A DNA stretch of 64,000 bases from an uncultured Colwellia sp. (GTDB lineage Bacteria > Pseudomonadota > Gammaproteobacteria > Enterobacterales > Alteromonadaceae), in the NCBI GenBank assembly GCA_913058245.1, contig CAJXQJ010000001.1, forward strand, positions 124,001 to 188,000, given 5' to 3'. Position 1 is the stretch's first letter, and every line of letters begins with the position of its first letter. This document shows, in pieces, positions 31,199 through 47,344 of this stretch. The position numbers and the translations under genes were made by a program. The notes under the pieces were generated by a model. That model had not been told where the DNA came from. It did no database searches and saw only the letters and a list, made by a program, of their open reading frames with translations.

Positions 31199-34100
31199 AT
31201 GATAAAAGCTGCAAAGAATATTACACAGTTAATTGCGTTGCTTTCCACAGCAACTTTAATAGGTTGTGGTGGTGGTAGTGTAGAAACTGAAACAAAAGTT
31301 GATGCCGTAGATCCACAACTGCCGGTGACTGACTGGCAACTGGTGTGGAGTGATGAATTTGACGGTTCTTCTATTGATGCTAATAAATGGACGCATGAAG
31401 TTAATTGTGATGGCGGAGGTAACCAAGAAGAGCAATGTTATACCGACTCACCAGAGAACTCTTTTGTTGCCGATGGCATGTTGAATATTGTTGCCTTACC
31501 TGCAGCGGAGGGCTCTGCTAAACCTTATACATCTGCCCGTCTTAATACTAAAGGCAGCCAAAGCTGGACTTATGGTCGCTTTGAAATGCGTGCAAAATTA
31601 CCTGCAGGGCAGGGCGCATGGCCGGCTTTTTGGATGTTACCTACCGATGAAGTGTATGGTGGCTGGCCGCGATCTGGTGAAATCGATATTATTGAGGCGG
31701 TTAACTTAAAAGCTGGCACCAATGAAGGTGGTAGCGAAGCTAATGTTTATGGCACTTTACATTATGGTAAAGAGTGGCCTGATAATAGTTTTTCAGGGCA
31801 ATCATATTTATTACCTGACGATATTAACCCCGCTGATGATTTCCATACGTATGCAATAGAGTGGCAAGAAGGAGAGATTCGTTGGTACGTTGATGATTAC
31901 TTGTATGCTACACAGCGTAAATCGACTGTACGTTATAACAGCAAAGACGAAGCCGTTGGTTTATCTCATCGTGGTTGGTTTACAGAGAACTTCAATATTG
32001 TTTCGGGTGAGCTTGAAACGCAATGGGAAAATGCTCCTTTTGATCAACGATTCCATTTATTGTTAAATTTTGCTGTTGGTGGTAATTGGCCTGCATCAGT
32101 AAATGATACTGGTATTGATGCTAGTGCTTTTGAAAATGGTAACTCTTATATTGTTGATTATGTACGTGTGTATCAATGTCAGCAAGATACCTTAACAGGT
32201 AGAGGCTGTGAAACTGTTCGCCCAGGATACGATAGTTTTGATGATGCTATGGTTGAAGGTAAAGCGCCAATTCCATCGCCGCCATCTACTGGTATCCCTC
32301 AAAACTTAACAATTTTCTCTGGCACTATTAATCCAAATTGGCCAGCGTGGGACTGTTGTGGTGGTTCAACTCCGGGCATAGTTAATGATGCTGAAAAAGG
32401 CGACGTAGTTGAATTTGTTGTTGGTGCGGAACCAACGGTAATGGGCTTTATTTCTCGAGAAGCTTTTATTGATGATCCAGCAGGACAACCATCTCCATTT
32501 GATGCTTCACCATTAATTGACACTGGCACATTAAAGTTTGACATGAAAGTTGTCACCGCGCCAAGCAACGCTGATTCAACTTGGTTAATAAAAGTTGAAA
32601 GCCAAGAAGGCACCACTGCGGTAGAAATGCCTTTAACTAATAGTACAGAAGGTGCTGCGCCCGAAACAGGTACTTGGCAAACACATACTTTTCCTTTGAA
32701 AACACTAGCTGATGCGGGCTTAGATTTAAGTGCTATTGATGTTGTCATGATTTTCCCTGCATGGGGAACGGGTGAAGGTGCGGTTTATCAGGTTACTAAC
32801 TTAACTATTGCAGATGATGCAGTTGCTTCGCCACAGGTAACCATATTTGAAGATGCAGAAAATGCAAGTTGGCCTATGTGGGATTGCTGTGGTGGCTCAA
32901 CACCTACAGTAGAAACAGATGATGCAGAACACGGTGCAGTAGCGCAATTTAGTATTGGCGCTGACCCTACTGTGATGGGCTTTATTTCTCGAGAAGGCAA
33001 TACCGATTCGCCTGCGCCATTTGATGCGACAGGGATCTTAGCCAATGGTGTTGTGCAATTTGATATGAAAGTTGTCACTATGCCAAACGATGCTAGCGCA
33101 ACGTGGTTATTCAAAATTGAAGCGGATAATGCCGAAACAGCGGTTGAGTTACCGTTATCAGACAGTGTTGAAGGTGTGGTGCCAGTAGTCGACCAATGGC
33201 AAACATATACATTCAATTTAGCCGATTTAGCCAATGCTGGTTTAGACGCGAGTGCTATCGACGTATTGATGATATTCCCAGCATGGGGCACAGGTGAAGG
33301 CGCTGTTTATCGTGTTGATAACGTTAAAATGTATGATCCCAATGCTTCTACAGACTTTAATGGTCATGTGCTATTTGCTGACGATGTGAAAGAGCAATGG
33401 AGCATTTGGGATTGTTGTGGTGGTTCGACGCCGACCTTAGAAAATGATGATACTGAGCACGGCATGACGGCAGAATTTGTTATTGGTGCTGCACCGACCG
33501 TGATGGGTTTATTAGCTGATGATGATGTTTATTTAGATGCATCAAGCTTGTTAAGCACTGGCGTTATCCAGTTTGAAATGAAAGTGATTAATACGCCAAA
33601 CGATGCTAGTGCGGTATGGAAATTCAAAATTGAAGCCGGTGATACTGCGTCTGCTGTTGAACTAGATTTAACCGCAAGTCAGGAAGGTGTTGCGCCAGTT
33701 GTTGGTCAATGGCAAACCTATACTTATTCGCTTGAAAGCTTATTTGATGCTGGGTTAGACCTAAGTTCTATCGACGTTGTTATGGTTTTCCCAGCGTGGG
33801 GAACAGGAGAAGGTGCTGTATATCGCCTTGATAATGTGATGATCTTTGATCCAAGCAGCGTCCCAGCTCCGCAAGGTTTAACCTTATACGACAATGCACA
33901 AAATGCCGAATGGCCGATTTGGGATTGCTGTGCTGGTTCAACTCCCACTGAAGAAGAAGATGATGCTGACCACGGTATGGTTGCAGAGTTTGTTATTGGC
34001 GCCTCACCAACGGTAATGGGCTTCTTAGCCAACGACGGTGTTTATTTCGATGCAAGTTCATTATTACAAAATGGTGTAGTGAAATTTGATATGAAAGTCG

Positions 34101-34369
34101 TTAGTGCGCCAAATGATGCTGGTTCAGTATGGAAATTTAAAATTGAATCAGGTGATACAGCAAGTGCGGTTGAATTAGATTTAACCGCTAGCCAAGAAGG
34201 CGCGGCACCAATTGTTGGCGAGTGGCAAACCTACACTTATACACTTTTAGACCTATTTGATGCTGGCTTAGATGTTAGTGAAATTGATGTGATTATGGTT
34301 TTCCCTGCTTGGGGAACGGGTGATGGAGCAGTTTATCGACTTGATAATGTCGCAATAACTGCACCATAG
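31199..34369 (+). CDS. GH16 endo-beta-1,3-glucanase lipoprotein with four tandem binding-like modules
   Basis: 1056 residues. Lipobox LIGC (Cys23). GH16 domain about 40-328 with the catalytic signature SGEIDIIEA (E-x-D-x-x-E) and the C-terminal strand YIVDYVRVYQ. Then four modules of about 165-175 residues begin near 367, 546, 721 and 892, each opening with a W-x-x-WDCCGGSTP motif and ending with VFPAWGTGEGAVYRLDN. They look like beta-sandwich carbohydrate-binding modules; each conserves two adjacent cysteines. The enzyme should cleave laminarin at the cell surface. A TonB receptor gene follows 89 bp later in the same direction. Confidence 0.93.
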   Translation: MIKAAKNITQLIALLSTATLIGCGGGSVETETKVDAVDPQLPVTDWQLVWSDEFDGSSIDANKWTHEVNCDGGGNQEEQCYTDSPENSFVADGMLNIVALPAAEGSAKPYTSARLNTKGSQSWTYGRFEMRAKLPAGQGAWPAFWMLPTDEVYGGWPRSGEIDIIEAVNLKAGTNEGGSEANVYGTLHYGKEWPDNSFSGQSYLLPDDINPADDFHTYAIEWQEGEIRWYVDDYLYATQRKSTVRYNSKDEAVGLSHRGWFTENFNIVSGELETQWENAPFDQRFHLLLNFAVGGNWPASVNDTGIDASAFENGNSYIVDYVRVYQCQQDTLTGRGCETVRPGYDSFDDAMVEGKAPIPSPPSTGIPQNLTIFSGTINPNWPAWDCCGGSTPGIVNDAEKGDVVEFVVGAEPTVMGFISREAFIDDPAGQPSPFDASPLIDTGTLKFDMKVVTAPSNADSTWLIKVESQEGTTAVEMPLTNSTEGAAPETGTWQTHTFPLKTLADAGLDLSAIDVVMIFPAWGTGEGAVYQVTNLTIADDAVASPQVTIFEDAENASWPMWDCCGGSTPTVETDDAEHGAVAQFSIGADPTVMGFISREGNTDSPAPFDATGILANGVVQFDMKVVTMPNDASATWLFKIEADNAETAVELPLSDSVEGVVPVVDQWQTYTFNLADLANAGLDASAIDVLMIFPAWGTGEGAVYRVDNVKMYDPNASTDFNGHVLFADDVKEQWSIWDCCGGSTPTLENDDTEHGMTAEFVIGAAPTVMGLLADDDVYLDASSLLSTGVIQFEMKVINTPNDASAVWKFKIEAGDTASAVELDLTASQEGVAPVVGQWQTYTYSLESLFDAGLDLSSIDVVMVFPAWGTGEGAVYRLDNVMIFDPSSVPAPQGLTLYDNAQNAEWPIWDCCAGSTPTEEEDDADHGMVAEFVIGASPTVMGFLANDGVYFDASSLLQNGVVKFDMKVVSAPNDAGSVWKFKIESGDTASAVELDLTASQEGAAPIVGEWQTYTYTLLDLFDAGLDVSEIDVIMVFPAWGTGDGAVYRLDNVAITAP
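32299..34366 (+). repeat. Four tandem ~520-bp coding repeats in the GH16 gene
   Basis: Units start near 32299, 32836, 33359 and 33872. All four encode the WDCCGGSTP-type block (fourth has WDCCAGSTP), PTVMGF, a DMKV strand and VFPAWGTG. Units 3 and 4 are most alike (same EAGDTASAVELDLTASQEG-type block), pointing to a recent duplication after two older ones. Confidence 0.9.
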
Positions 34370-34400
34370 CACGTAATTCAAAAACCTAATTTAAAAATGT

Positions 34401-34422
34401 GCGGCTGACTTTAAGTAGCCGC
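34401..34422 (+). promoter_or_regulatory. Intercistronic stem-loop between GH16 and the TonB receptor
   Basis: Arms GCGGCT/AGCCGC with a 10-nt loop, 36 nt before the receptor start, with no following T-run. It may stabilise or separate the two messages rather than end transcription. Confidence 0.45.
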
Positions 34423-34458
34423 CATAAATAAAACTAAATTTAACTAAGTAGGGTTAAC

Positions 34459-37400
34459 ATGAAACATTTAACATTCTCAAAAAAACATTTAGCTGTTTGT
34501 ATATCAGCAATTATTGCGACAGGTTTTAGCCAGCAAGTTTTAGCCGCTGAAGAAGAAGCTGCACTAACAGATAATGATGAAAATATTGAAGTTATTGAAG
34601 TAAAGGGCATTCGAGGTTCATTAGTTCGGTCAATGAACATTAAACGCGACATGTCAGGTGTGGTTGATGCCATTTCTGCTGAAGAAATGGGTAAGTTTCC
34701 TGATACAAACTTAGCTGAATCATTACAGCGTATTACTGGGGTTTCCGTAAGTCGTAGTAACGGTGAAGGTAGCCAGATTACGGTGCGTGGTTTCGGTCCT
34801 GAATTTAACTTAGTAACCTTAAATGGTCGGCAAATGGCTGGCACGGGTTTTACTCGCTCGTTTAATTTTGAAAACTTATCATCTGAAGGTGTTAGTTCTC
34901 TCGAAATTATGAAAACTGCACGTGCCGAGGTTCCTACAGGAGGCTTAGGGGCAACAGTAAATATTGTAACGGCTAAACCTTTTCAAAACCCAGGTGAAAA
35001 GTTCTCTTTTATGGCAAAAGGGATTCATGATAGTTCTGTTGAAAATGGCGATGATGTTACACCTGAAATAGCCGGTATTTATAGCAATACCTTTGATGAT
35101 GATCGTTTTGGCGTTTCAGCAAATTTCTCATATCACCGAAGAGATTTTCAACGTCAAGCTGCTAATGTTCGTTCATGGTTAGTGAACCCATCGCTAAGTG
35201 TTGATCCAGAAAATATTATAGATAATCGACCTGTTGATGCAGAAGGAAATGTCGCTAAGCAGTTTTTTGATCCTACTTCTGGCGAAAACGGTGAATATGT
35301 TTCTGCTTCTTTCTTTCCACAAGAGATAAGCTACGCTAGAGAGGATATTCAACGTGAGCGCACCAATGCACAAGTTACCTTTCAATTTGCTGCGACAGAT
35401 GATTTAATTTTTACTGTAGATCACACTGTATCTAATGCCGTTACTGGCAATAATTCCCTTTCTTGGGGCATGTGGAATGGTTCATTCGGAGGTAATGCCA
35501 ATTCTTATGAATTGGATGAAAATGGCACGGCTGTTTATTATAACTCTGCTGGCGACGATGGCTCGTTTACTTCCTTTCGTGAGACCAATGAAGTTGATTC
35601 GAAAGCGACTGGTATTAACATTGAGTGGTTTGCCAGCGATAATTTAAGCTTCACCTTTGACGCTCATACCTCTAAAACAACCACTGATAATGGTAAAGAC
35701 AAAGGCTTAGGTGCTAATGCTCGGGTCATCTTGGGCTCTGCTGACTTGTCTACCAAAGAGTATTTCTTTACCGAGGGCGATATTCCCGGCTTTAACATTA
35801 ACTGGAATAATGGCACTCAAGAAATTAACCCGAACCAAATTGGTTCTAACTTTAGTATTTTTACCCGTACGCCCGGTGAATCGGAAGTGTCACAAGTACA
35901 GTTAGACGGAAAACTATTATTAGATACTGATTTTGGTCTGGAAACCGTTAAATTTGGTACCGCCTACACTAAACAAACATTAAGTGGCTGGGGTGGTTCA
36001 AATAATGCAAATGCACCAGGGTTTAATAACGGTACTTTTGCTGAGATATTCCCAGACGGTATGTTTGAAAGAGTTGATTTAAGTGACTTTCTTGATCAGT
36101 TCTCCTTTGGCTCTGGTGGTGTTTCTCCTGGCTATGCCTACACTTTTAATCTTGACGAAGCATTCACAAGACAAGCCTTATTTTTGACGGAAGATGTGGT
36201 TGGTAGTGATGTTTATCAAATAGGTAGCTTTGATGACTTCCCTGTTAATGAAGTCGAAGAAGAGACTATCAGTTTGTACGTTTCTACTGATTGGCTTTTT
36301 GACGTTAGTGGTTACGATGTACAAGTTAACCTTGGTGTACGTTATGAAGAAACTGATATTGTTAGTCCCGCTAAAAGTCGGGTAGCTGAACTTGTTTATT
36401 GGGCTGGTGGCTCTGAGTGGATCACTCAGTTTGCCAGTGGTGGCGAGTTAGTTGAAGTCGATTATGAAGGGAATTATGATTTATTCCTTCCAATGTTAGA
36501 TATCAAGGTTGATCTCAGTGATGATTTAGTTGCAAGAGCGTCTTGGGGTCAAACTATCACTAGGCCTACATTAGGTGATATGCTTGGAAACCTTAGCTTA
36601 ACATCATCTCCAAAACTTAACTCGAGAAGTGGTAGTCGCGGTAACCCTAATTTGCAGCCATTTAAGTCGACTAATATTGATTTAACTCTTGAATATTACT
36701 ACGACGAAGCTAGCTATGCCGCGATTGGATTATTTTGGAAAGATGTAGACGACTGGATTGATAATGCTGAGGTTAAAACAACATTTGATGGTCTTCATGA
36801 TGTTTATTTAGGTCAGCGTTGGAATGACGCAGTTGCTGCTATTGAAGGGCGTGGTGAACAAGCGACAGACTCAGCAATATACAATGAAATTGTTGCCAAT
36901 GGCGTAGGTATTGGCGAGAACAACCGCGTGTTACCAGACGCAGCAACTGATCCTCTTATCGAATGGACCATAAGCTCTCCAGAGAATGTTGGCTCACGTA
37001 AAGTCAATGGTATTGAGATTGCTATTCAACACTTATTTGGTGAGTCTGGCTTTGGCGCCGGGTTTAATGCCACTTTTGTTGATGGTGATGTTGAATATGA
37101 TAACTATGTACTTGCGTCTCAAGCGGTGTTGTCAGGCTTAAGTGATTCAGCAAACTTACAAGGCTTCTATGAGAAAGATGGTTTATCAGTAAAAATTACG
37201 GGTGCATGGCGTGATGAGTACCTGATTGGCCAAGGTTTACCTGATGCTGCTGGTTCTCCTCCACAATATGCCGAAGAGTACTTGCAGTGGGATCTAAGTG
37301 TTAACTATGAACTTAATGACAATATGACGGTATTTTTTGAAGGTGTGAATTTAACCAACGAAACTGAACGCTCATTTAGCCGTTTTGAAAGTCAGTTCTT

Positions 37401-37461
37401 AAGTGCCGCGCAATACGGCCCAAGATATGCTCTTGGCTTTAGATACACTATGGATAACTAA
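34459..37461 (+). CDS. TonB-dependent outer-membrane receptor for glucan oligosaccharides
   Basis: 1000 residues with a signal peptide ending near FSQQVLA. A TonB-box-like IEVIEVKG precedes the plug (SLVRSMNIKRDMSGVVDAIS, PDTNLAESLQRITGVSVSR, SQITVRGFGPEFNLVTLNGR), then the long barrel ending in YALGFRYTMDN with a terminal aromatic-type strand. Receptors of this IRGSL subclass in Alteromonadales often accompany polysaccharide loci. Its position between GH16 and an MFS sugar porter suggests import of laminarin oligomers. The AGGG ribosome binding site is good. Specificity is from context. Confidence 0.92.
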   Translation: MKHLTFSKKHLAVCISAIIATGFSQQVLAAEEEAALTDNDENIEVIEVKGIRGSLVRSMNIKRDMSGVVDAISAEEMGKFPDTNLAESLQRITGVSVSRSNGEGSQITVRGFGPEFNLVTLNGRQMAGTGFTRSFNFENLSSEGVSSLEIMKTARAEVPTGGLGATVNIVTAKPFQNPGEKFSFMAKGIHDSSVENGDDVTPEIAGIYSNTFDDDRFGVSANFSYHRRDFQRQAANVRSWLVNPSLSVDPENIIDNRPVDAEGNVAKQFFDPTSGENGEYVSASFFPQEISYAREDIQRERTNAQVTFQFAATDDLIFTVDHTVSNAVTGNNSLSWGMWNGSFGGNANSYELDENGTAVYYNSAGDDGSFTSFRETNEVDSKATGINIEWFASDNLSFTFDAHTSKTTTDNGKDKGLGANARVILGSADLSTKEYFFTEGDIPGFNINWNNGTQEINPNQIGSNFSIFTRTPGESEVSQVQLDGKLLLDTDFGLETVKFGTAYTKQTLSGWGGSNNANAPGFNNGTFAEIFPDGMFERVDLSDFLDQFSFGSGGVSPGYAYTFNLDEAFTRQALFLTEDVVGSDVYQIGSFDDFPVNEVEEETISLYVSTDWLFDVSGYDVQVNLGVRYEETDIVSPAKSRVAELVYWAGGSEWITQFASGGELVEVDYEGNYDLFLPMLDIKVDLSDDLVARASWGQTITRPTLGDMLGNLSLTSSPKLNSRSGSRGNPNLQPFKSTNIDLTLEYYYDEASYAAIGLFWKDVDDWIDNAEVKTTFDGLHDVYLGQRWNDAVAAIEGRGEQATDSAIYNEIVANGVGIGENNRVLPDAATDPLIEWTISSPENVGSRKVNGIEIAIQHLFGESGFGAGFNATFVDGDVEYDNYVLASQAVLSGLSDSANLQGFYEKDGLSVKITGAWRDEYLIGQGLPDAAGSPPQYAEEYLQWDLSVNYELNDNMTVFFEGVNLTNETERSFSRFESQFLSAAQYGPRYALGFRYTMDN

Positions 37462-37525
37462 GTGCAACTGACATAAAGCGACTAATTAAAGTCGGTAATG
37501 TTTGATTTTAGATACTTGTAAACCG

Positions 37526-37606
37526 CACTTATTAAACATTATAAGTGTACTTCTTACATCGATATTGCTGTGAGCGAGCTTATATTCGTGTGCAGCAAAT
37601 ATCGAT
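37526..37606 (+). promoter_or_regulatory. Two stem-loops upstream of the MFS porter gene
   Basis: CACTTAT/ATAAGTG (37526-37547) is followed by a larger imperfect hairpin, ATCGATATTGCTG (37558-37570) against CAGCAAATATCGAT (37593-37606), differing by one extra base. A third ATCGATA-like half (CTCGATATA) follows at once. No T-run. It may be an operator with CGATA half-sites or an RNA structure that sets the ratio of receptor to porter. Confidence 0.5.
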
Positions 37607-37630
37607 ACTTCTCGATATAGGAATTTTATT

Positions 37631-38902
37631 ATGGCTGGGAATTCGGTCATTTTAGAGCAAGAACAACGCGTAACTAATGCTGTTTCGCCTAGTCAAAACC
37701 GTTTTGCTCTGATCTCATTAACAACATTGTTTTTTATGTGGGGCTTTATTACCTGCTTAAATGACATTCTTATTCCTCATTTAAAAGCAATATTTGACTT
37801 AACATACACACAGTCAATGTTGGTGCAGTTTTGCTTTTTTGGTGCTTACTTTTTGGTTTCATTACCAGCAGGACAGCTAGTGAAAAAAGTTGGCTATCAA
37901 AAAGGAATTGTAGCTGGACTTGTTGTTGCAGCTTTTGGCTGTTTGATGTTTTATCCTGCTGCGTCAATGCATAGCTACCCGATGTTTTTATCGGCTCTAT
38001 TTGTGTTGGCTAGCGGTATCACTATTTTACAGGTTTCTGCAAATCCTTATGTAACGTTACTGGGATCAAAAGAGTCAGCATCGTCGCGCTTAACTATGAC
38101 TCAAGCCTTTAACTCTTTAGGTACAACGGTTGCTCCTTATTTAGGTGCTTTGTTTATTCTTAATGAAGCGGCACACTCAATGTCAGCGCCTTCTGCTGAT
38201 TCTGTCAAAGTTCCTTATTTGATACTTACTGCTGCGTTACTTTTACTTGCGGCAATTTTTGCTTGGCTAAGGCTTCCTCATATTAGTAGCGCCGAGACCT
38301 CTTCTGATGAGGTGGTATCAGGCTCAGCATGGCAGTATCGTCATTTAGTTTTAGGGGCCGTTGGTATATTTGTTTATGTGGGCGCTGAAGTATCAATTGG
38401 TAGTTTTCTTATTAACTTTTTTGGTGAAGCTAACATTGCTAGTTTAGAAGAATCTGAAGCAGCCAAGTATCTCACATATTATTGGGCTGGAGCTATGGTA
38501 GGACGATTCATTGGTGCAGCAGTTATGCAAAAAGTATCTGCTACTAAGGTTCTTAGTTTTAATGCCTTTTTTGCTGTTCTTTTAGTATCTGTAGCCATTT
38601 TAACCAGTGGCAGTATGGCGATGTGGGCGATACTTTTAGTTGGCTTATGTAATTCGATAATGTTTCCAACTATTTTTAGCTTAGCGCTAAATGGTTTAGA
38701 TAAACATACGAGTCAAGGAGCTGGAATTTTATGTCTGGCTATTGTTGGCGGTGCTATTGTGCCGTTAATTCAAGGTGTATTGGCTGATGTTGTTGGTGTG
38801 CAATTATCATTTGTTATTCCTGTTCTCTGCTATAGCTATATCGTTTATTACGGTTTGAGCGGTGCTACGCCTGTTTTGACAAATAATCAGGAGCAAAGAT
38901 AA
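37631..38902 (+). CDS. Sugar MFS transporter, FucP/glucose-galactose porter type
   Basis: 423 residues, twelve hydrophobic helices. The N-terminal [28 protein letters not shown] region (read as [18 protein letters not shown]) is diagnostic of the GGP/FucP branch, as are [35 protein letters not shown] and [19 protein letters not shown]. It is a proton-coupled inner-membrane importer, here probably of glucose. Its stop overlaps the GH3 start (TAATG), so the two are translationally coupled. AGGAA ribosome binding site. Confidence 0.93.
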
Positions 38903-41481
38903 TGAATAAGTTAACTTGCCTGATGTTTTCAACACTAACTTTACTGGTTACTCAAGGTTGTAATACCGCGATTAAAGAGTCGGATAAAGATAACGAAACT
39001 AGTACTAAATTAGTAAATAATAATTTGTCGATTTGGCCAGAAATAGTGTCTGACGTTAACACTGATACTGCCCTTGAACGCCAAGTTCAACGCTTGTTAT
39101 CTACATTGACTTTAGAACAGAAAGTCGCACAAATGATTCAGCCTGAAATTCGTGATATTACACCTGAAGATATGCGCAAATATGGCTTTGGCTCTTATCT
39201 TAATGGTGGTGGTGCATTTCCAAACAATAATAAGCACTCAACACCGCAAGACTGGATTGCCTTAGCCGAAGAGATGTATCAAGCATCTATTGATGATTCA
39301 ATTGATGGTTCAACAATTCCAACCATGTGGGGCACGGACGCCGTCCACGGTCATAATAATGTTATTGGTGCGACGCTATTTCCACATAATATCGGTTTAG
39401 GCGCCGCTAATAATCCTAAGTTAGTGGAGAAAATAGCTCAAATTACCGCGACCGAAGTCATGGTTACAGGTATTGACTGGGTATTCGCGCCAACGGTGGC
39501 AACGGTTCGAGATGATCGCTGGGGCAGGACTTATGAAGGTTACTCTGAAGATCCTGATATTGTTAAAGATTATGCTGCGGCTGTTGTTAAAGGCTTGCAA
39601 GGTCATGCTGGAGACGACTTTTTAGGTGATGACAGGGTGATCAGCACCGTTAAGCATTTCATTGGTGATGGCGGTACGATTGATGGGGACGACCAAGGTA
39701 ATAATATAGCCTCGGAGCAAGCACTGTTTGATCTTCATGCCCAAGGGTATGTTGGCGGGTTAACTGCAGGCGCTCAGTCCGTAATGGCGTCATTCAATAG
39801 TTGGCATGGCGACAAAATTCACGGTAATCGTTACTTACTAACAGATGTTTTGAAAAATAAAATGGGTTTTGATGGTTTTGTTGTTGGTGATTGGAATGGT
39901 CATGGGCAAATTATTGGTTGTACTAATGAAAATTGCCCACAAGCTGCCAATGCTGGCTTAGATATTTTTATGGTGCCAACGGATGCTTGGAAGCCTTTAA
40001 TGGAAAACACCATTATTCAGGTTAATCAAGGCATCATTCCGTTATCGCGTATTGACGATGCAGTGACTCGCATTCTACGAGTAAAATTACGTGCCGGACT
40101 TTTCAGTAAACCGAGCCCTAAAGACCGAATTTTCTCAGGAAAGACCGAACTTATAGGTAGTGAGCAACACCGCGAAGTAGCAAGGCAAGCCGTAAGAGAG
40201 TCTTTGGTATTGTTAAAGAATAAAAACAATATTTTACCTTTAGCACCAAAATTAGATGTATTAGTCGCTGGTGATGCTGCCAACAACATTGGTAAGCAAT
40301 CTGGTGGTTGGAGTATCACCTGGCAAGGAACAAATAATAGTAATAATGATTTTCCAGGTGGCTCCTCTATTTATGATGGTATTGCGGCACAAGTAACGGC
40401 GGCTGGTGGTAATGTTAGCTTAAGTGAAGATGGTAGTTTTTCGCAAAAACCAGATGTCGCCATCGTTGTTTTTGGTGAAGAACCCTATGCCGAGGGTCAT
40501 GGCGACAAAGACAATCTCGCCTATCAACGCGGGACAAAGACTGACTTAGCATTATTGAAAAAATTGAAGAGCCAAGGCGTTACAGTGGTTAGTATTTTTA
40601 TCAGTGGCAGACCTATGTGGGTAAATGCTGAGCTTAATGCCAGTGATGCTTTCGTTGCTGCTTGGTTACCCGGCTCTGAAGGGAAAGCGGTGGCAGATGT
40701 ACTTTTTAAAGATAAAGAAGATAATATTCAATTTGATTTTAAAGGGAAGTTATCTTTCTCATGGCCAAAAACGGCAAACCAAATTGTCAATCGATTTGAT
40801 AAAAAATACGACCCATTACTGCCTTACGGTTACGGTTTACGTTATGTCACGCAAGGTGGTGAAGCTCAACAGCAGCTTGCTGATAATTTACCCGAACATA
40901 TTGCTAGTGATGCACTCGTTGTTAAAAACACGGTAATATTTTCTGGCAAAGTGGTTAAGCCATGGCGGATGTTTTTAACGTCGACAGCAGAATCATCAGA
41001 ATTGCTTTCTAATAGTAGTGCATTACCCGGAGCGGTTTATAGAACTATTGATAAAGTGGTGCAAGAAGATGCCTTTCGTATCGAAACAAATGGCAGTGAG
41101 AGCGCTGGTATTAACTTTGCCAGTAGCTTTAGAGAAGATTTATCATTTGAACTGGAACAAAAATCAGCATTAGTTATTGCAGTAAAACGTGATAGTGATG
41201 TCTCAGAAGCGGTTAATATTTCGATGAGTTGCGAATCAGAAGGTGACGTAGCGGGTAGTTGTCGATCAAAAGTTGATATTCAAAAACAACTGCAAGCGAT
41301 ACCATCAGGGCAGTGGCAGGAAATAGCGATAGACCTAAGATGTTTTGTGGATAAAGGCGTACAGTTAGATAAAATTGTTTCGCCATTTGAGCTTAAAACT
41401 GGCGGTGCATTAACCTTGTCTATCAGCAGTATTGGCTTTAAAGCGGGTTTACCTAAGCATGACATTATAATGTGCCATTAA
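38902..41481 (+). CDS. GH3 exo-beta-glucanase lipoprotein (ExoP-like)
   Basis: 859 residues with lipobox TQGC (Cys20). GH3 N-domain: QMIQPEIRDITPEDMRKYGFGS, MWGTDAVHGHNN, DDRWGRTYEGYSED, VKHFIGDGGT; nucleophile Asp in GFVVGDWNGH. C-terminal GH3 domain from ~420 (ESLVLLKNKNNILPL). The last ~180 residues are a beta-sandwich like the C-terminal domain of the Pseudoalteromonas exo-1,3/1,4-beta-glucanase ExoP. It should release glucose from the ends of laminarin oligosaccharides in the periplasm or on the surface. It is the last gene of the rightward operon; a strong terminator follows. Confidence 0.94.
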   Translation: MNKLTCLMFSTLTLLVTQGCNTAIKESDKDNETSTKLVNNNLSIWPEIVSDVNTDTALERQVQRLLSTLTLEQKVAQMIQPEIRDITPEDMRKYGFGSYLNGGGAFPNNNKHSTPQDWIALAEEMYQASIDDSIDGSTIPTMWGTDAVHGHNNVIGATLFPHNIGLGAANNPKLVEKIAQITATEVMVTGIDWVFAPTVATVRDDRWGRTYEGYSEDPDIVKDYAAAVVKGLQGHAGDDFLGDDRVISTVKHFIGDGGTIDGDDQGNNIASEQALFDLHAQGYVGGLTAGAQSVMASFNSWHGDKIHGNRYLLTDVLKNKMGFDGFVVGDWNGHGQIIGCTNENCPQAANAGLDIFMVPTDAWKPLMENTIIQVNQGIIPLSRIDDAVTRILRVKLRAGLFSKPSPKDRIFSGKTELIGSEQHREVARQAVRESLVLLKNKNNILPLAPKLDVLVAGDAANNIGKQSGGWSITWQGTNNSNNDFPGGSSIYDGIAAQVTAAGGNVSLSEDGSFSQKPDVAIVVFGEEPYAEGHGDKDNLAYQRGTKTDLALLKKLKSQGVTVVSIFISGRPMWVNAELNASDAFVAAWLPGSEGKAVADVLFKDKEDNIQFDFKGKLSFSWPKTANQIVNRFDKKYDPLLPYGYGLRYVTQGGEAQQQLADNLPEHIASDALVVKNTVIFSGKVVKPWRMFLTSTAESSELLSNSSALPGAVYRTIDKVVQEDAFRIETNGSESAGINFASSFREDLSFELEQKSALVIAVKRDSDVSEAVNISMSCESEGDVAGSCRSKVDIQKQLQAIPSGQWQEIAIDLRCFVDKGVQLDKIVSPFELKTGGALTLSISSIGFKAGLPKHDIIMCH

Positions 41482-41590: not shown

Positions 41591-42436
41591 TTACTTAGTT
41601 AATCGCTGTGATATCTCGTGTAATCTTATAGCTTGCTGAATATGTAATGGCATTAACGTTAGTCGTTCTATGTAGTCAAAAACATACATTAATATAGAAA
41701 ATACAAGTCCGTAGCTAAGCACACCTTCGGCAATTACTGTTAATGGTGTGAATATAAATAACGCAATGACGCCGCACCATACAATAAAGTAATTAACGGT
41801 TTCTAAGTCAGAAAGGGCGATATTCCAACGCATTAATGCATTAAAATGTTGATGGCTTTTACGCTTGTTTTTACTTGATATCGCCTGGACTTGTTGTTCA
41901 AACTCATCATTATATGCTTTGTTTAATTGATAATTTTTCCCACCGGTAGTGGTGTAAATAATCATGATTAAAATGAGCAAAGCAACACAGGCATAAAATA
42001 CTTGCAAATTGAGTGTTGAGATAACAATCGCAATACCAACAATAGCGACAACAGACTCAATTAAATCAGGTAGAGAATTTTCTAAAAACTCAACAAACTC
42101 GGTCATTAATTTGCTGCGTGCCGATATGGCAGAAATTGACTGCTTTTTTTGATGCCCACTTACGATCATTTCGGTTACTGTTTTTAAGTAAATATTTGCA
42201 TAAACACGAGTGTCGTAAAAGCGCCTTAAACTGCCAATGATTAATGATGATACGCCAAGTGCGGTTAACCAATATAAGCCTTGATAACTTTTATCGAGTA
42301 AATCGTTAATTGCAATACCGATCACCAGTGGATAGAAAATACCTATGGTAGATTCAATAATGACCAGCGCTAAGGTGATTGATATTTTCCATTTAAATCG
42401 CAAGAGAATTTCTTTAAAAGTGTGTTTGTACGACAT
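41591..42436 (-). CDS. ABC-exporter-type six-helix membrane domain without ATPase
   Basis: 281 residues, about six membrane helices in the pattern of the type I ABC exporter membrane domain: LALVIIESTIGIFYPLVIGIAIND, GSLRRFYDTRVYANIYLKTVTEMI, then VEFLENSLPDLIESVVAIVGIA and a long cytoplasmic coil (NKAYNDEFEQQVQAISSKNKRKSHQHFNAL, read in part). The ORF ends after helix 6 (LHEISQRLTK), exactly where the nucleotide-binding domain should begin, and no ATPase gene follows before the bidirectional terminator. It may pair with an ATPase encoded elsewhere or have another role. Confidence 0.8.
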   Translation of the reverse strand: MSYKHTFKEILLRFKWKISITLALVIIESTIGIFYPLVIGIAINDLLDKSYQGLYWLTALGVSSLIIGSLRRFYDTRVYANIYLKTVTEMIVSGHQKKQSISAISARSKLMTEFVEFLENSLPDLIESVVAIVGIAIVISTLNLQVFYACVALLILIMIIYTTTGGKNYQLNKAYNDEFEQQVQAISSKNKRKSHQHFNALMRWNIALSDLETVNYFIVWCGVIALFIFTPLTVIAEGVLSYGLVFSILMYVFDYIERLTLMPLHIQQAIRLHEISQRLTK

Positions 42437-42591: not shown

Positions 42592-42676
42592 AGGCAAAAA
42601 AAAGCGTTCACTTAAAAAGTAAACGCATTATAAATAAACATGAAACACTAAGGGAAATAAAGCCTCTCGTATACTA
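42592..42676 (-). ncRNA. Candidate small RNA, copy 1 of a duplicated element
   Basis: 85 nt nearly identical to 43715-43799. On the minus strand: a -10-like TAGTAT (42671-42676), then GAGAGGC as likely RNA 5' end, a conserved pyrimidine-rich body (TTTATTTCCCTTAGTG), and a terminator stem (42604-42613 with 42617-42626, one mismatch) followed by T8. No good -35 is seen. It lies in the 405-bp gap between two divergent genes; nothing upstream on that strand needs a terminator there, which argues for an independent RNA. The stretch between it and mtfA holds nothing else I can name. Confidence 0.55.
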
Positions 42677-42841
42677 AGAGTCGTGAAGTTTTAATTAGTT
42701 CAAATTCTTTTTATATTTTGTTAATTAAGCTGATTTGATTGTAATTGGTTAGCGTAATATTTTGTCCATGACTTGATATTTCACTTTTGCGTACGCACTT
42801 CTTTTAAATAAGCTTAAAGAAACTAGGGTGCTTTATACGTT

Positions 42842-43663
42842 ATGCTATCTTACTTCCTACCAATATTTATTGGTGTGATATTAATTGCCTATTTGGCTGG
42901 AAAACCTTATTGGCAAAACTATAAACGCTCAATGATCAAACGTAAACCTTTTAAAAAATCGTGGCGTAAAATTATTCAGCAACGTATGCCTTATTTTCGC
43001 ATTATGCCAGCAGATTTACAGCTACAGTTAAAACAACATATTCAAGTATTCTTGGCGGAAAAAGAGTTTGTTGGTTGCAATGGTGTTGTTATAACAGATG
43101 AAATTAAAATAACTATTGCTGCACAAGCATGTTTACTGCTTCTTAACCGAGAAACTAATTATTACCCGAAATTAAAAACCATACTGGTATATCCAAGAGC
43201 GTTTGTTAAAGAGCAACAAAATAGAAATGCAGACGGTGTACAGTTTTCTCAAAAAGTTGTTTTAGCGGGTGAGTCATGGGACTTTGGTAAAGTTGTTTTG
43301 TCGTGGCAGGACACTCTAGATGGAGCACAAATTCCTAATGATGGCCGTAATGTTGTTATTCATGAGTTTGCTCATCAACTTGATCAAGAGAATGGCCCTG
43401 CTAATGGAGCACCAATTCTCGATAAACAACAAAGTTATCAATGTTGGTCAGAAGTTTTTTCGGCGCAGTTTGCAATTTTACAACAACAAGCACAAACAGG
43501 CTCGCCATCTTTGTTTGATTATTATGGTGCAACAAATCCTGCTGAATTTTTTGCTGTCGCCAGCGAAGTATTCTTTGAGCAATCTCAACAGCTAGCGAGA
43601 GAATATCCGAAACTTTACCGACAATTAACCCTGTACTACACCATTGATCCATTACATTGGTGA
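42842..43663 (+). CDS. mtfA: MtfA-type zinc metallopeptidase (M90)
   Basis: 273 residues. An N-terminal membrane helix (SYFLPIFIGVILIAYLAG) is followed by the M90 domain: KSWRKIIQQRMPYFRIM, KTILVYPRAFV, GESWDFGKVVLSWQD, and the zinc site VVIHEFAHQLDQENG (HExxH). Late residues AEFFAVASEVFFEQ contribute the third ligand. In E. coli MtfA is an aminopeptidase that binds the glucose regulator Mlc; whether that holds here is unknown. It is a single gene, bracketed by two copies of a small-RNA-like element. Confidence 0.92.
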   Translation: MLSYFLPIFIGVILIAYLAGKPYWQNYKRSMIKRKPFKKSWRKIIQQRMPYFRIMPADLQLQLKQHIQVFLAEKEFVGCNGVVITDEIKITIAAQACLLLLNRETNYYPKLKTILVYPRAFVKEQQNRNADGVQFSQKVVLAGESWDFGKVVLSWQDTLDGAQIPNDGRNVVIHEFAHQLDQENGPANGAPILDKQQSYQCWSEVFSAQFAILQQQAQTGSPSLFDYYGATNPAEFFAVASEVFFEQSQQLAREYPKLYRQLTLYYTIDPLHW

Positions 43664-43714
43664 TATTTTTTGATGCTAAGGTTAGTTATTTTGAGTGAGA
43701 GCCGGCAATAAAAT

Positions 43715-43799
43715 AGGCAAAAAAAAAGCGTTTACTTTAAAAGTAAACGCATTATAAAAACATGAAACACTAAGGGAAATAAAAGCCTCTCATATAGTA
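43715..43799 (-). ncRNA. Candidate small RNA, copy 2; also a possible katG terminator
   Basis: Matches copy 1 over 85 nt with a few substitutions and short indels. Here the stem is perfect, 11 bp (43728-43738 with 43740-43750), followed on the minus strand by T9. A -10-like TACTAT (43794-43799) and GAGAGGC align with copy 1. The element is 121 nt past the katG stop on the same strand, so its hairpin may also end katG mRNA, and the RNA could be a 3'-derived product. No convincing -35 is present. Confidence 0.58.
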
Positions 43800-43919
43800 T
43801 GAACAAGGAATTAACATAAAGTTCCTTAACCATGTATTTATTTATCGATTAAGTAAGGCTATTTATTCATTACTCCTTTCTTTTTAATCTAGAGTAACTC
43901 TAAATTCATTCGCTAGAGC

Positions 43920-46142
43920 TTATTTTAAGTCAAACCTATCAAGCTGCATTACTTTCACCCAAGCCTTAACAAAGTCATTGATGAATTTGTCGCTAGCATC
44001 ATTAGATGCGTAAACTTCGGCAACAGCACGCAATTCAGAGCTAGAGCCAAAAATTAAATCAACCGGAGTTGCTTGCCATTTCATTTTTCCAGAATGACGA
44101 TCAATACCTTGGTAAAGCCCTGGTTGTGAACTGTCTTTCTGCCAGGTTGTTGACATGTCTAGTAAGTTAATAAAAAAGTCATTACTTAACACGCCAGGGG
44201 TTTCGGTAAATATACCTAAAGATGAACCATCATAGTTGGCATTTAATGCTCGCATACCGCCAATGAGTACGGTCATTTCTGGCACATTTAAACCTAAGGT
44301 ATTCGCCTTATCAACTAACATTTCTGCCGGCGACATATAACTGTCATTGCTGTAGAAATTTCTAAAGCCATCGGCTGTAGGTTGTAAATAATTAAATGAC
44401 TTGATATCGGTCTGCGCTTGAGTTGCATCAGTACGACCAGGTGCGAATGGCACATTGATATTATAGCCAGCCTTTTTAGCAGAGCTTTCAATCGCTGTTG
44501 CGCCAGCAAGAACGATAACGTCAGCAAGAGATACCTTATTATTTGCTGATTTTCGGTTGAACTGTTCCTGAATATTTTTTAGCGTTGAGAGTACTTTCTT
44601 TAACTTTTTAGGATTATTTACTGTCCAACTATTTTGTGGGGCGAGGTTAATACGCGCGCCATTAGCACCACCACGCATATCTGTAACTCGATGGCTTGAT
44701 GCTGCTGCCCATGCAACTTTAACAAGTTCGGCATTTGATATCCCTGAACTAATGATTTGCTTTTTAAGTTTATTAATATCGCGTTCATTAATTAGTGAGT
44801 AATCTACTGCTGGAATTGGGTCTTGCCACAATAAAACTTCTGCTGGTATTTCTGAGCCTACATATCGTGCCCGTGGCCCCATATCGCGGTGGGTTAATTT
44901 AAACCAAGCTTTAGCAAATGCTGTATCGAATTCTCTAGGATCTGCTCTGAAACGTTGAACTATTTTTAAAAACTCGGCATCTTCTTTTAGTGCCAAGTCA
45001 GTGGTAAACATAATAGGTGCATGACGTTTATTTGGAATGTGGGCATCGGGTACTAAATTTGCCGCAGCTTTATCTTTAGGTATCCACTGAATTGCGCCAG
45101 CAGGGCTTGTTGTGATAATCCAATCGAAATTCATTAAGTTATCTAAATAGTTAGAAGACCATTGTGTTGGTGTTGTAGTCCAAGCTCCTTCTAAACCACT
45201 GCTAGTGGTGTCAGCACCAACGCCTGTTCCACATTTGTTTTTCCAACCTAAGCCTTGTTGTTCAATGTCAGCTGCAGCAGGCTCGGCTTCAACACATTGC
45301 TCTGGTTTTTTAGCGCCGTGGGCTTTACCTAAAGTATGTCCACCGGCAATAAGCGCGACAATTTCTTCATCATTCATCGCCATACGGCCAAATGACATTC
45401 TAATATCTTTTGCTGCTAAAAGAGGATCAGGCTTACCATGTGGGCCAACAGGGTTGACATAAATTAAGCCCATTTCAACAGCAGCCAGTGGCCCTTTGAG
45501 TTTGCCTTTTTTGTCTCGGCGCTTATCATCAAGCATGGCTGTTTCGGGTCCCCAATATACTAAGTCGGGTTCCCAATCATCGCTTCTGCCGCCGGCAAAG
45601 CCAAAGGTTTTAAAGCCCATAGATTCTAAGGCTACATTGCCGGAAAGTACCATTAAATCAGCCCATGATATTTTGCGACCATATTTTTGTTTCACCGGCC
45701 AGAGTAAGCGACGTGCCTTATCTAAATTAACATTATCTGGCCAACTATTAAGTGGATCAAAACGTTGTTGCCCACCTGATGCGCCGCCTCGACCATCGTT
45801 TACACGATAAACGCCAGCACTATGCCATGCCATACGGATCATTAACGGACCATAATGTCCCCAGTCAGCTGGCCACCATGATTTTGAATCAGTAAGAGTT
45901 ACTTCAATATCTTTTTTGAGTTGTTGTAAATCGACCGTGGCAAATTCTTTGGCATAGTTAAAGTTTTCACCGTAAGGGTTTGATTCTGCGCCGTGTTGGC
46001 GCAAAGGGCTTAAGTTGAGTTGTTCAGGCCACCAGAATTGGTTGGTTTTTGCTTCACCTACAGCGAGTGCTGAAGTTGATAAAGTCATTGATGAAATGGC
46101 TACACCTATTGCTGTGGCAAGCGGTAGTGCTTTTTTTAACAT
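43920..46142 (-). CDS. katG: Exported catalase-peroxidase
   Basis: 740 residues from the ATG at 46142, which has GGGGAAT 6 nt upstream; a GTG 21 nt earlier has none. A signal peptide ([29 protein letters not shown], read in two parts) sends it to the periplasm. The N-domain has the active site [19 protein letters not shown] (distal Arg, Trp, His), [12 protein letters not shown] (cross-link Tyr) and proximal His in [11 protein letters not shown]. The C-domain is the usual haem-less duplicate. It destroys hydrogen peroxide outside the cytoplasm. OxyR lies divergent, the expected regulator. Confidence 0.96.
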
Positions 46143-46441
46143 GTTATTCCCCAGTAGTAACACTGACTTATTCGTTGATGATAAGCCCTAGTTATTCAAG
46201 CGTAGAACTGGTGAGTTAGTTTTTATAATTGATTGATTGAAAGATATTATTCTGTTTTTTTAATGATGATTTAATTTTCTTTATAAACAGATGCTTATGA
46301 TTTTATTGTGAAGGTTTGACATAAAGAGCAGTTAACCTAGGCTGGTATAATCAAATAAACTAATTAAACTGGCTTTTATGTTCACTAATAACTATGGATA
46401 GAGCTTTGTCCGTAGTTTTATTTGTATAGGTAGCCAGATTT
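46143..46441. other. katG-oxyR divergent intergenic region
   Basis: About 300 bp with both promoters. OxyR sites are degenerate (spaced ATAG/CTAT elements); CTATGGATAG near 46390-46400 is suggestive, but I could not place a full four-part site. AT-rich, no frame. Confidence 0.4.
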
Positions 46442-47344
46442 ATGATTTCATTGAAGCAACTCCACTATGCTTTAGCTGTTGAAAAAACGTTGCACTTTAA
46501 AAAAGCAGCAGACGCATGTCATGTGTCACAATCAGCATTAAGTACAGCAATAATCGAGCTGGAGAAGCAACTTGGTACGACAATATTCGAGCGTAATAAT
46601 AAGCAAGTGTTAATTACTAGCCAAGGTCAGCTTATTTTAAATAAAGCGAAAACGGTTAAGTTAGAGCTAGATGGCTTAATGCAGATATCGCAATCCGATA
46701 ACCAACCATTTAGCAATGCTATGACACTTGGAGTGATTCCAACCATTGGTCCATACCTGTTGCCAAAAGTATTACCTGAAGTGAGAAAACGCTTTCCTGA
46801 GTTTAAAATGAAAATTATTGAAGAGCAGTCTCACGTGCTGGTTGATATGGTGAGAAATGGTGAAATAGATGCCGCTATTTTAGCATTACCTTATCCAATT
46901 GAGGGCTTAATGAGTTTTGATTTTTGGCAAGAGGACTTTTATTGGGTTAGCCATAAAGATGAATGCCCAAGCCAACTCAAAGAAATCACCAGTGAAGAGC
47001 TTGAGATTGAAAAGTTGATGTTATTGAAAGATGGTCATTGTTTAAAAGATCACGCCTTAGCGGCTTGTAGTTTGCAAAATGACAAACAAGATTCTGATTT
47101 TGACTCAGCAAGTTTACATACACTTATTCAAATGGTTGCAGGTAAGCTTGGTACAACATTGGTGCCTCAAATGGCTTTAGATCAGTTGATTTATAATGAG
47201 TCAGAAATTAGGGCTGTGCATTTAAACGAACCTGGCCCGCATCGTACAATTGCTTTAATTATCCGCCCTAATTATGTTCGCACCAATGAACTGACTACCT
47301 TAAAAGAAATATTTACTGAGCAGTTAAACGCAAAGTGTTGTTAG
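46442..47344 (+). CDS. oxyR: Peroxide-sensing LysR-family regulator OxyR
   Basis: 300 residues. N-terminal LysR helix-turn-helix (LKQLHYALAVEKTLHFKKAA, CHVSQSALSTAI). The regulatory domain has the redox pair in the right context: Cys200 in LLKDGHCLKDHA and Cys209 in AACSL, equivalent to Cys199 and Cys208 of E. coli OxyR, which form a disulfide on peroxide exposure. GKLGTTLVPQMA is the conserved late segment. It sits divergent from katG and should activate it under peroxide stress. Confidence 0.95.
   Translation: MISLKQLHYALAVEKTLHFKKAADACHVSQSALSTAIIELEKQLGTTIFERNNKQVLITSQGQLILNKAKTVKLELDGLMQISQSDNQPFSNAMTLGVIPTIGPYLLPKVLPEVRKRFPEFKMKIIEEQSHVLVDMVRNGEIDAAILALPYPIEGLMSFDFWQEDFYWVSHKDECPSQLKEITSEELEIEKLMLLKDGHCLKDHALAACSLQNDKQDSDFDSASLHTLIQMVAGKLGTTLVPQMALDQLIYNESEIRAVHLNEPGPHRTIALIIRPNYVRTNELTTLKEIFTEQLNAKCC

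Follow-up and report, generated by a model that had tools for sequence, protein, structure and literature searches.

The window analysed here, a 64,000-nt stretch of the genome of an uncultured Colwellia sp., carries two near-identical elements on its minus strand, at 42592-42676 and 43715-43799, which align over 85 nt with 91% identity and flank a single gene, mtfA, recognized by its match to Peptidase_M90 (Table 1). As the preliminary description of this DNA had noticed, both elements face the same way and end in an intrinsic terminator; a terminator scan found the two, each a 10-bp stem followed by 8 T in copy 1 and 9 T in copy 2. Within the 2.96-Mb assembly, which is 66.9% complete, copies 1 and 2 are the only strong copies. 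BLAST returned one additional weak partial match (E=0.0026), and a covariance model search located a third, diverged copy on contig 8.

Table 1. Features of the two-copy locus and of the predicted target site, in window coordinates
Feature	Position	Strand	Basis
Small RNA copy 1, predicted 73 nt, 5' GAGAGGC through the last T of the run	42596..42668	-	Promoter geometry and terminator; ends inferred
Sigma-E-type promoter of copy 1, GAACT-N17-TCTTA	42675..42701	-	Motif
Conserved 22-nt core of copy 1, TTTCCCTTAGTGTTTCATGTTT; proposed pairing region	42636..42657	-	Conservation
Intrinsic terminator of copy 1, 10-bp stem and 8 T	42596..42626	-	Terminator scan
Small RNA copy 2, predicted 73 nt	43719..43791	-	Promoter geometry and terminator; ends inferred
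Sigma-E-type promoter of copy 2, GAACT-N17-TCATA	43798..43824	-	Motif
Conserved 22-nt core of copy 2	43758..43779	-	Conservation
Intrinsic terminator of copy 2, 10-bp stem and 9 T	43719..43750	-	Terminator scan
mtfA (Peptidase_M90), between the copies; neighbour with no presumed functional tie	42842..43663	+	Domain match, neighbourhood comparison
katG, catalase/peroxidase, upstream neighbour of copy 2	43920..46163	-	Model match
LysR regulator, divergent from katG; best NCBIfam match OxyR, 220.8 bits, below the cut-off of 329	46442..47344	+	
Predicted target site AACATGAAACA, spanning a TonB-dependent receptor start codon (ORF 34459-37461)	34456..34466	+	11 contiguous Watson-Crick pairs with the core

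Both copies are preceded by GAACT-N17-TC(T/A)TA, a promoter of the sigma-E type. The TA(G/C)TAT motif that had earlier been taken for the -10 box is displaced by this assignment, as it sits downstream of the real -10 (TCTTA in copy 1, TCATA in copy 2) and before the RNA start. Likewise, the -35 boxes that had seemed weak enough to call for an activator or for processing read GAACTA and GAACTT and belong to another sigma class. The arrangement is shared across relatives: GAACT-N17-TCNNA ends 13-18 nt upstream of 47 of 48 exact 22-nt cores (46 from 40 named stretches and 2 from the window, none dropped), compared with a mean of 0.03 and a maximum of 2 such placements in mononucleotide shuffles, and the spacer between the two boxes varies in sequence across cores. 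The sole exception, in L062, retains GAACTT and has a changed -10. Published sigma-E boxes include GGAACTTTT and GTCAAA (PMC1804206) as well as GGAACTT and TCAAA (PMC12153292). The upstream region of rpoE served as a control and contained GAACT-N17-TCNNA in all 16 same-genus loci, with TCCTA as the -10 in 15, at a distance of 91-125 nt from the start of the model match; among nine loci from other families of the order, four had the motif with 17-nt spacing, one had it farther away with 15 nt, and four had none.

Genome-wide, GAACT-N17-TCWTA is not enriched (10 sites versus 7 for the reversed control), and open frames of 166-630 codons contain six of the ten sites. Each of the remaining four stands ahead of an sRNA-like terminated unit: copy 1, copy 2, the third copy and a unit on contig 3. 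In the last of these (L107, about 1500-1600), an intergenic GAACT-N17-TCATA leads into C-rich sequence and then a strong terminator; the unit is possibly a further sigma-E-type small RNA that does without the core of the present RNAs, which we call type A. We hold control of the small RNAs by sigma-E to be quite likely.

How widespread are these units? A search for homologues in related genomes, suggested in the preliminary description, gave BLAST matches at E<=0.01, some of them weak, in 48 of the 147 genomes of the family, more than chance would give. The earlier notion that the two elements are homologous small RNAs, probably acting in trans, is supported. At least two matches were present in 31 of the 48 positive genomes, and up to seven in some; these copy numbers are counts of BLAST matches at that threshold, with few candidates scored per genome. 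Among GTDB genomes, 40 stretches contain the exact core; their titles read Colwellia, Cognaticolwellia, Thalassotalea, Thalassomonas, Alteromonadaceae or Colwelliaceae bacterium, and in one case Gammaproteobacteria bacterium. A covariance model was built from 41 of 53 relatives (the 12 omitted being variants, partial, duplicate or badly placed) and matched, under strict filters, 10 of 394 genomes of the order, all from the same family. One relative, G119, also has two copies 1.1 kb apart. No Rfam family reached its gathering score in the window, the weak scores lying far below gathering (mmgR 27.3 bits, anti-hemB 23, ErsA 20.9), and a literature search among open-licence papers found none on such an RNA in Colwelliaceae. 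By sequence, the elements represent an uncatalogued family of predicted small RNAs, found only in Colwellia-type genomes among those searched.

The core is the best conserved part of the RNA and is largely unpaired; the preliminary description had judged the unpaired body to be as conserved as the stem, and the core proves to be conserved even better than the terminator sequence. Every one of the 48 cores is followed within 75 nt by a run of at least six T. In the alignment, three of the four consensus pairs of the terminator stem show pair-keeping changes on both sides. A 5' hairpin pairs in 92.8% of cells and is weakly supported because six of its seven pairs vary on one side only. Both helices together have four pairs with two-sided changes, a number reached by 59 of 500 shuffles.

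We surveyed the neighbourhood of the core in 39 of the 40 named stretches, omitting L046, which is another piece of the L036 contig. Within 3 kb of the core, gshA was seen in at least 12 and a transglycosylase gene in at least 10, while mtfA and katG were each seen in at least 2 (L053 and L069); these counts are minima because the stretches end at 8 kb or less. The gshA and transglycosylase clusters were each identified from one member, and gshA of this genome and the L053 pair of mtfA and katG were identified separately. At the gshA loci, the core is in 12 of 12 cases 3' of gshA and encoded on the other strand, with another gene in between in L047. Copies 1 and 2 are not beside gshA. The diverged copy on contig 8 of the same genome is likewise 3' of gshA on the opposite strand, and this locus is perhaps the ancestral site of the family. 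The position beside mtfA and katG seems to reflect later dispersal inside a single genus. Arrays linked to gshA often comprise a second, hairpin RNA, type C, which contains CUCCCUGGA and is represented by 20 distinct sequences; wherever types A and C were both seen, type C is nearest to gshA, and a type B is sometimes present. On contig 8 (L130, 1503-1845), the diverged type A copy precedes a type C hairpin unit. The two units, each with GAACT-N17-TCNNA, lie between a gene of the transglycosylase cluster and gshA. Type B units, characterized by UUUCCC(C)UUGGA or a near variant, were observed in L055 (7037-7640), L064 (6757-7110) and L065 (5700-6233); since they share the promoter motif of types A and C and are arranged in tandem with them, the arrays hold three kinds of small RNA.

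Which messages might such RNAs recognize? The preliminary description had suggested that a C-rich segment could pair with Shine-Dalgarno sequences, and some Shine-Dalgarno regions do show complementarity to the core. The 10-nt sequence that would pair perfectly with the 5' half of the core, ACTAAGGGAA, is confined in this genome to the two sRNA genes and has further sites in G119 and G007. The complement of its 3' half, ACATGAAACA, has 10 sites, is not over-represented genome-wide (12 for the reversed control) and coincides in two cases with the sRNA genes themselves; among the other eight sites are two convincing start codons, both of outer-membrane protein genes, a TonB-dependent receptor (34459-37461, TIGR01782) and a Porin_4 porin. 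In G119, none of the 11 sites outside its sRNA genes resembles a start codon.

In this genome, start windows (-30 to +25) of TonB-dependent receptors are enriched for long matches: at least nine contiguous Watson-Crick pairs with the core were found in 6 of 26 receptors versus 5 of 319 other genes (p=3.7e-5). The excess concerns the tail only, and both the longer core and the threshold were chosen once a first test had been run. That test was unthresholded and showed no shift in run length across 29 receptor windows (p=0.42, or 0.10 with G-U pairs; one of 30 windows, with no ATG, was dropped). The receptor set is every plug-domain gene detected in the genome (26), the background was drawn from the window and 400 kb of sampled stretches after removal of genes similar to the receptors and porins that had been fetched, and start codons were picked by a heuristic. 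Compared with signal-peptide-like genes (2 of 137), the excess persists (p=2.2e-4), and decoy cores matched 1 of 26 receptors when reversed and 0 of 26 in the sense orientation (p of 0.066 or more). The corresponding excess in G119 is weak: 5 of 41 receptors reach nine pairs (p=0.0041, the background being 242 genes of mixed origin; 2 of 43 matches, below the family cut-off, were not included), with p=0.04 and 0.056 at eight and ten pairs, and shuffled cores attain it in 15%, 3% and 11% of cases at 8, 9 and 10 pairs. The match is retained in three pairs of receptors that appear to be orthologous, in one over 12 bp from the Shine-Dalgarno sequence to the start codon (L239/L259) and in two over 9 bp (L223/L238 and L237/L257).

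For copies 1 and 2, predicted duplexes with outer-membrane protein starts had unremarkable energies, the lowest background fraction among 13 loci being 0.107. With the diverged core of the third copy, receptors of this genome showed no excess (p 0.26-0.37). The third copy is predicted to form strong duplexes with an OmpW gene in three genomes (L138-L140; background fraction 0.004-0.029), strong in its own genome and weaker in two relatives, a candidate that was set aside because the paired letters change between the genomes. The porin was found in 30 of 30 sRNA-bearing genomes and in 15 of 30 genomes that were negative for the sRNA in the BLAST or the covariance model search. It opens with ATGAAAC in 19 of the 30 (third codon His, Leu or Arg) versus 2 of the 15, and a run of at least nine contiguous pairs is present in 11 of 30 versus 1 of 15, a comparison confounded by phylogeny. 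We regard repression of outer-membrane proteins by the small RNAs as likely. A weak Porin_4 match was also seen in G119 (L171; contig 24, 82368-83267), about 0.9 kb downstream of an sRNA copy on the same strand; it is a possible cis neighbour or target.

Probably, then, the two elements encode paralogous RNAs of about 73 nt that are driven by sigma-E and act in trans to repress outer-membrane proteins. At the level of sequence, this reading has at its disposal the units, their promoter class and its likeness to the rpoE promoter, the family, its multiplicity and the excess of receptor complementarity; transcription, sigma-E dependence, the RNA ends, the use of Hfq and repression are what we infer. 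We envision a scenario whereby misfolding of outer-membrane proteins or another disturbance of the envelope frees sigma-E, and RpoE polymerase would then act on promoters of one kind to transcribe both rpoE and the sRNA genes, the latter yielding intrinsically terminated, trans-acting RNAs. Their nearly invariant, largely single-stranded core, UUUCCCUUAGUGUUUCAUGUUU, would target the translation-initiation region of messages for outer-membrane proteins in either of two ways, the 5' half pairing with Shine-Dalgarno stretches (AAGGGAAA) or the 3' half with start codons (AACAUGAAAC). Such pairing might block ribosome entry and thereby lower the synthesis of TonB-dependent receptors and a porin.

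Several alternatives have to be weighed against this. The same kind of RNA might obey another ECF sigma factor and act on other mRNAs, a notion that draws on the 12 matches to the RpoE sigma model in this genome (E<=0.001, one above the cut-off), which represent several ECF sigma factors, and on the -10 of the sRNA genes, mostly TCTTA or TCATA and so slightly unlike the TCCTA of rpoE. We consider this unlikely, however, given that the rpoE promoter has the same -35, the same spacing and TCNTA in 15 of 16 same-genus loci and that the E. coli micA promoter has identical geometry. A smaller chance still attaches to a peroxide response, in which OxyS-like RNAs would be tied to katG and the OxyR-like regulator; a link to peroxide stress through katG had been proposed earlier. 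Although both genes adjoin copy 2, and L053 and L069 also have the sRNA beside mtfA and katG, neither katG nor mtfA lies within 3 kb of the core in the other 37 of the 39 stretches (some neighbours being out of view at the 8-kb limit), and the unlinked copies share the ECF-type promoter. An OxyS identity is disfavoured, as the RNAs have no Rfam match and a promoter of the ECF type.

Could the elements instead serve the genes next to them, as cis-acting leaders or mere terminators? Both have strong terminators, copy 1 points toward an ABC-transporter gene (41591-42436) and copy 2 lies behind katG, yet neighbours vary between loci, each unit has its own promoter, and a bare terminator would have no use for a conserved unpaired core, so that this explanation appears very improbable. 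For copy 2, one part of the earlier idea that it terminates katG may hold: it has the only minus-strand terminator-like site found between the katG stop codon and mtfA, and could catch katG read-through at the present locus. The orientation, however, is not conserved; it is kept in L069, and because katG lies on the opposite strand in L053 (C. mytili), such a role is not general. The remaining alternative, a mobile or inert repeat, might be suspected from two near-identical copies here and as many as seven elsewhere. It is extremely improbable, as this genome has only two strong copies, blastn found no match in phages or plasmids, the exact core was absent from the viral contigs searched, and promoter, core and terminator are kept while the flanks differ.

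The proposed sigma-E-driven circuit has well-studied counterparts. RybB (PMC1804206), VrrA (PMC2628432, PMC7602753) and MicV (PMC7602753) are described as sigma-E-promoted small RNAs that lower the synthesis of outer-membrane proteins by pairing at the 5' region of mRNAs, and the logic envisioned here, from envelope stress through a small RNA to a stop in outer-membrane protein synthesis, equals that reported for RybB, MicA and VrrA, the last of which was tested in a Salmonella rpoE mutant (PMC2628432). The present RNAs differ from RybB, VrrA and MicV in using a proposed internal core of other sequence and in having several copies per genome, and the Rfam searches made gave no RybB or VrrA match. 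Sibling sRNA sets under other regulators, such as Qrr1-5 and OmrA/OmrB, likewise consist of near-identical paralogues retained alongside one another.

The closest likeness is to MicA, which we take to be Rfam RF00078. The E. coli micA promoter, GAACT-N17-TCTGA-GTATAT-GAAAG, compares with GAACT-N17-TCTTA-GTATAC-GAGAGG in copy 1, so that MicA and the present RNAs have in common GAACT-N17-TCNNA-N6-GA(A/G)AG, a length, predicted for the present RNAs, of about 70 nt and an intrinsic terminator. Moreover, micA of E. coli lies 3' of gshA on the opposite strand (PMC4618604), like the related cluster in Colwelliaceae. Unlike MicA, the present family is multicopy, and the copies in the window lie away from gshA. 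Identity with MicA by sequence was rejected: four Rfam searches, loose ones included, gave no MicA match, and shuffles scored as high in 88-89% of cases for copies 1 and 2 and in 11-44% for eight type C RNAs. Because the RNA bodies cannot be aligned with MicA beyond shuffles, common descent from a gshA-linked sigma-E locus is a hypothesis. In its full form, which we put forward tentatively and hold to be rather less likely than its negation, that locus gave rise to micA in enterobacteria and in Colwelliaceae was duplicated and dispersed into as many as seven type A RNAs beside the conserved hairpin type C, with the two-headed 22-nt core (Shine-Dalgarno and AUG) shutting down TonB-dependent receptors and a conserved porin. 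As part of the same doubtful whole, the type A set would be tunable by dosage, and TonB-dependent receptors plausibly the main load of the outer membrane.

If the proposed regulation is true, marine Colwellia-type bacteria gain an RNA arm of the envelope stress response directed against TonB-dependent receptors, sigma-E small RNAs beside gshA extend well outside Enterobacteriaceae, and the age of MicA-type regulation can be tested against its sequence conservation. The variation in copy number among relatives constitutes a natural test of why sibling small RNAs persist.

The predicted target receptor in the window appears to reside in a polysaccharide-use cluster (31199-41481), in which a glucanase-like lipoprotein, the receptor, an MFS transporter and a GH3-like glucosidase were assigned by eye, the receptor alone having been checked.
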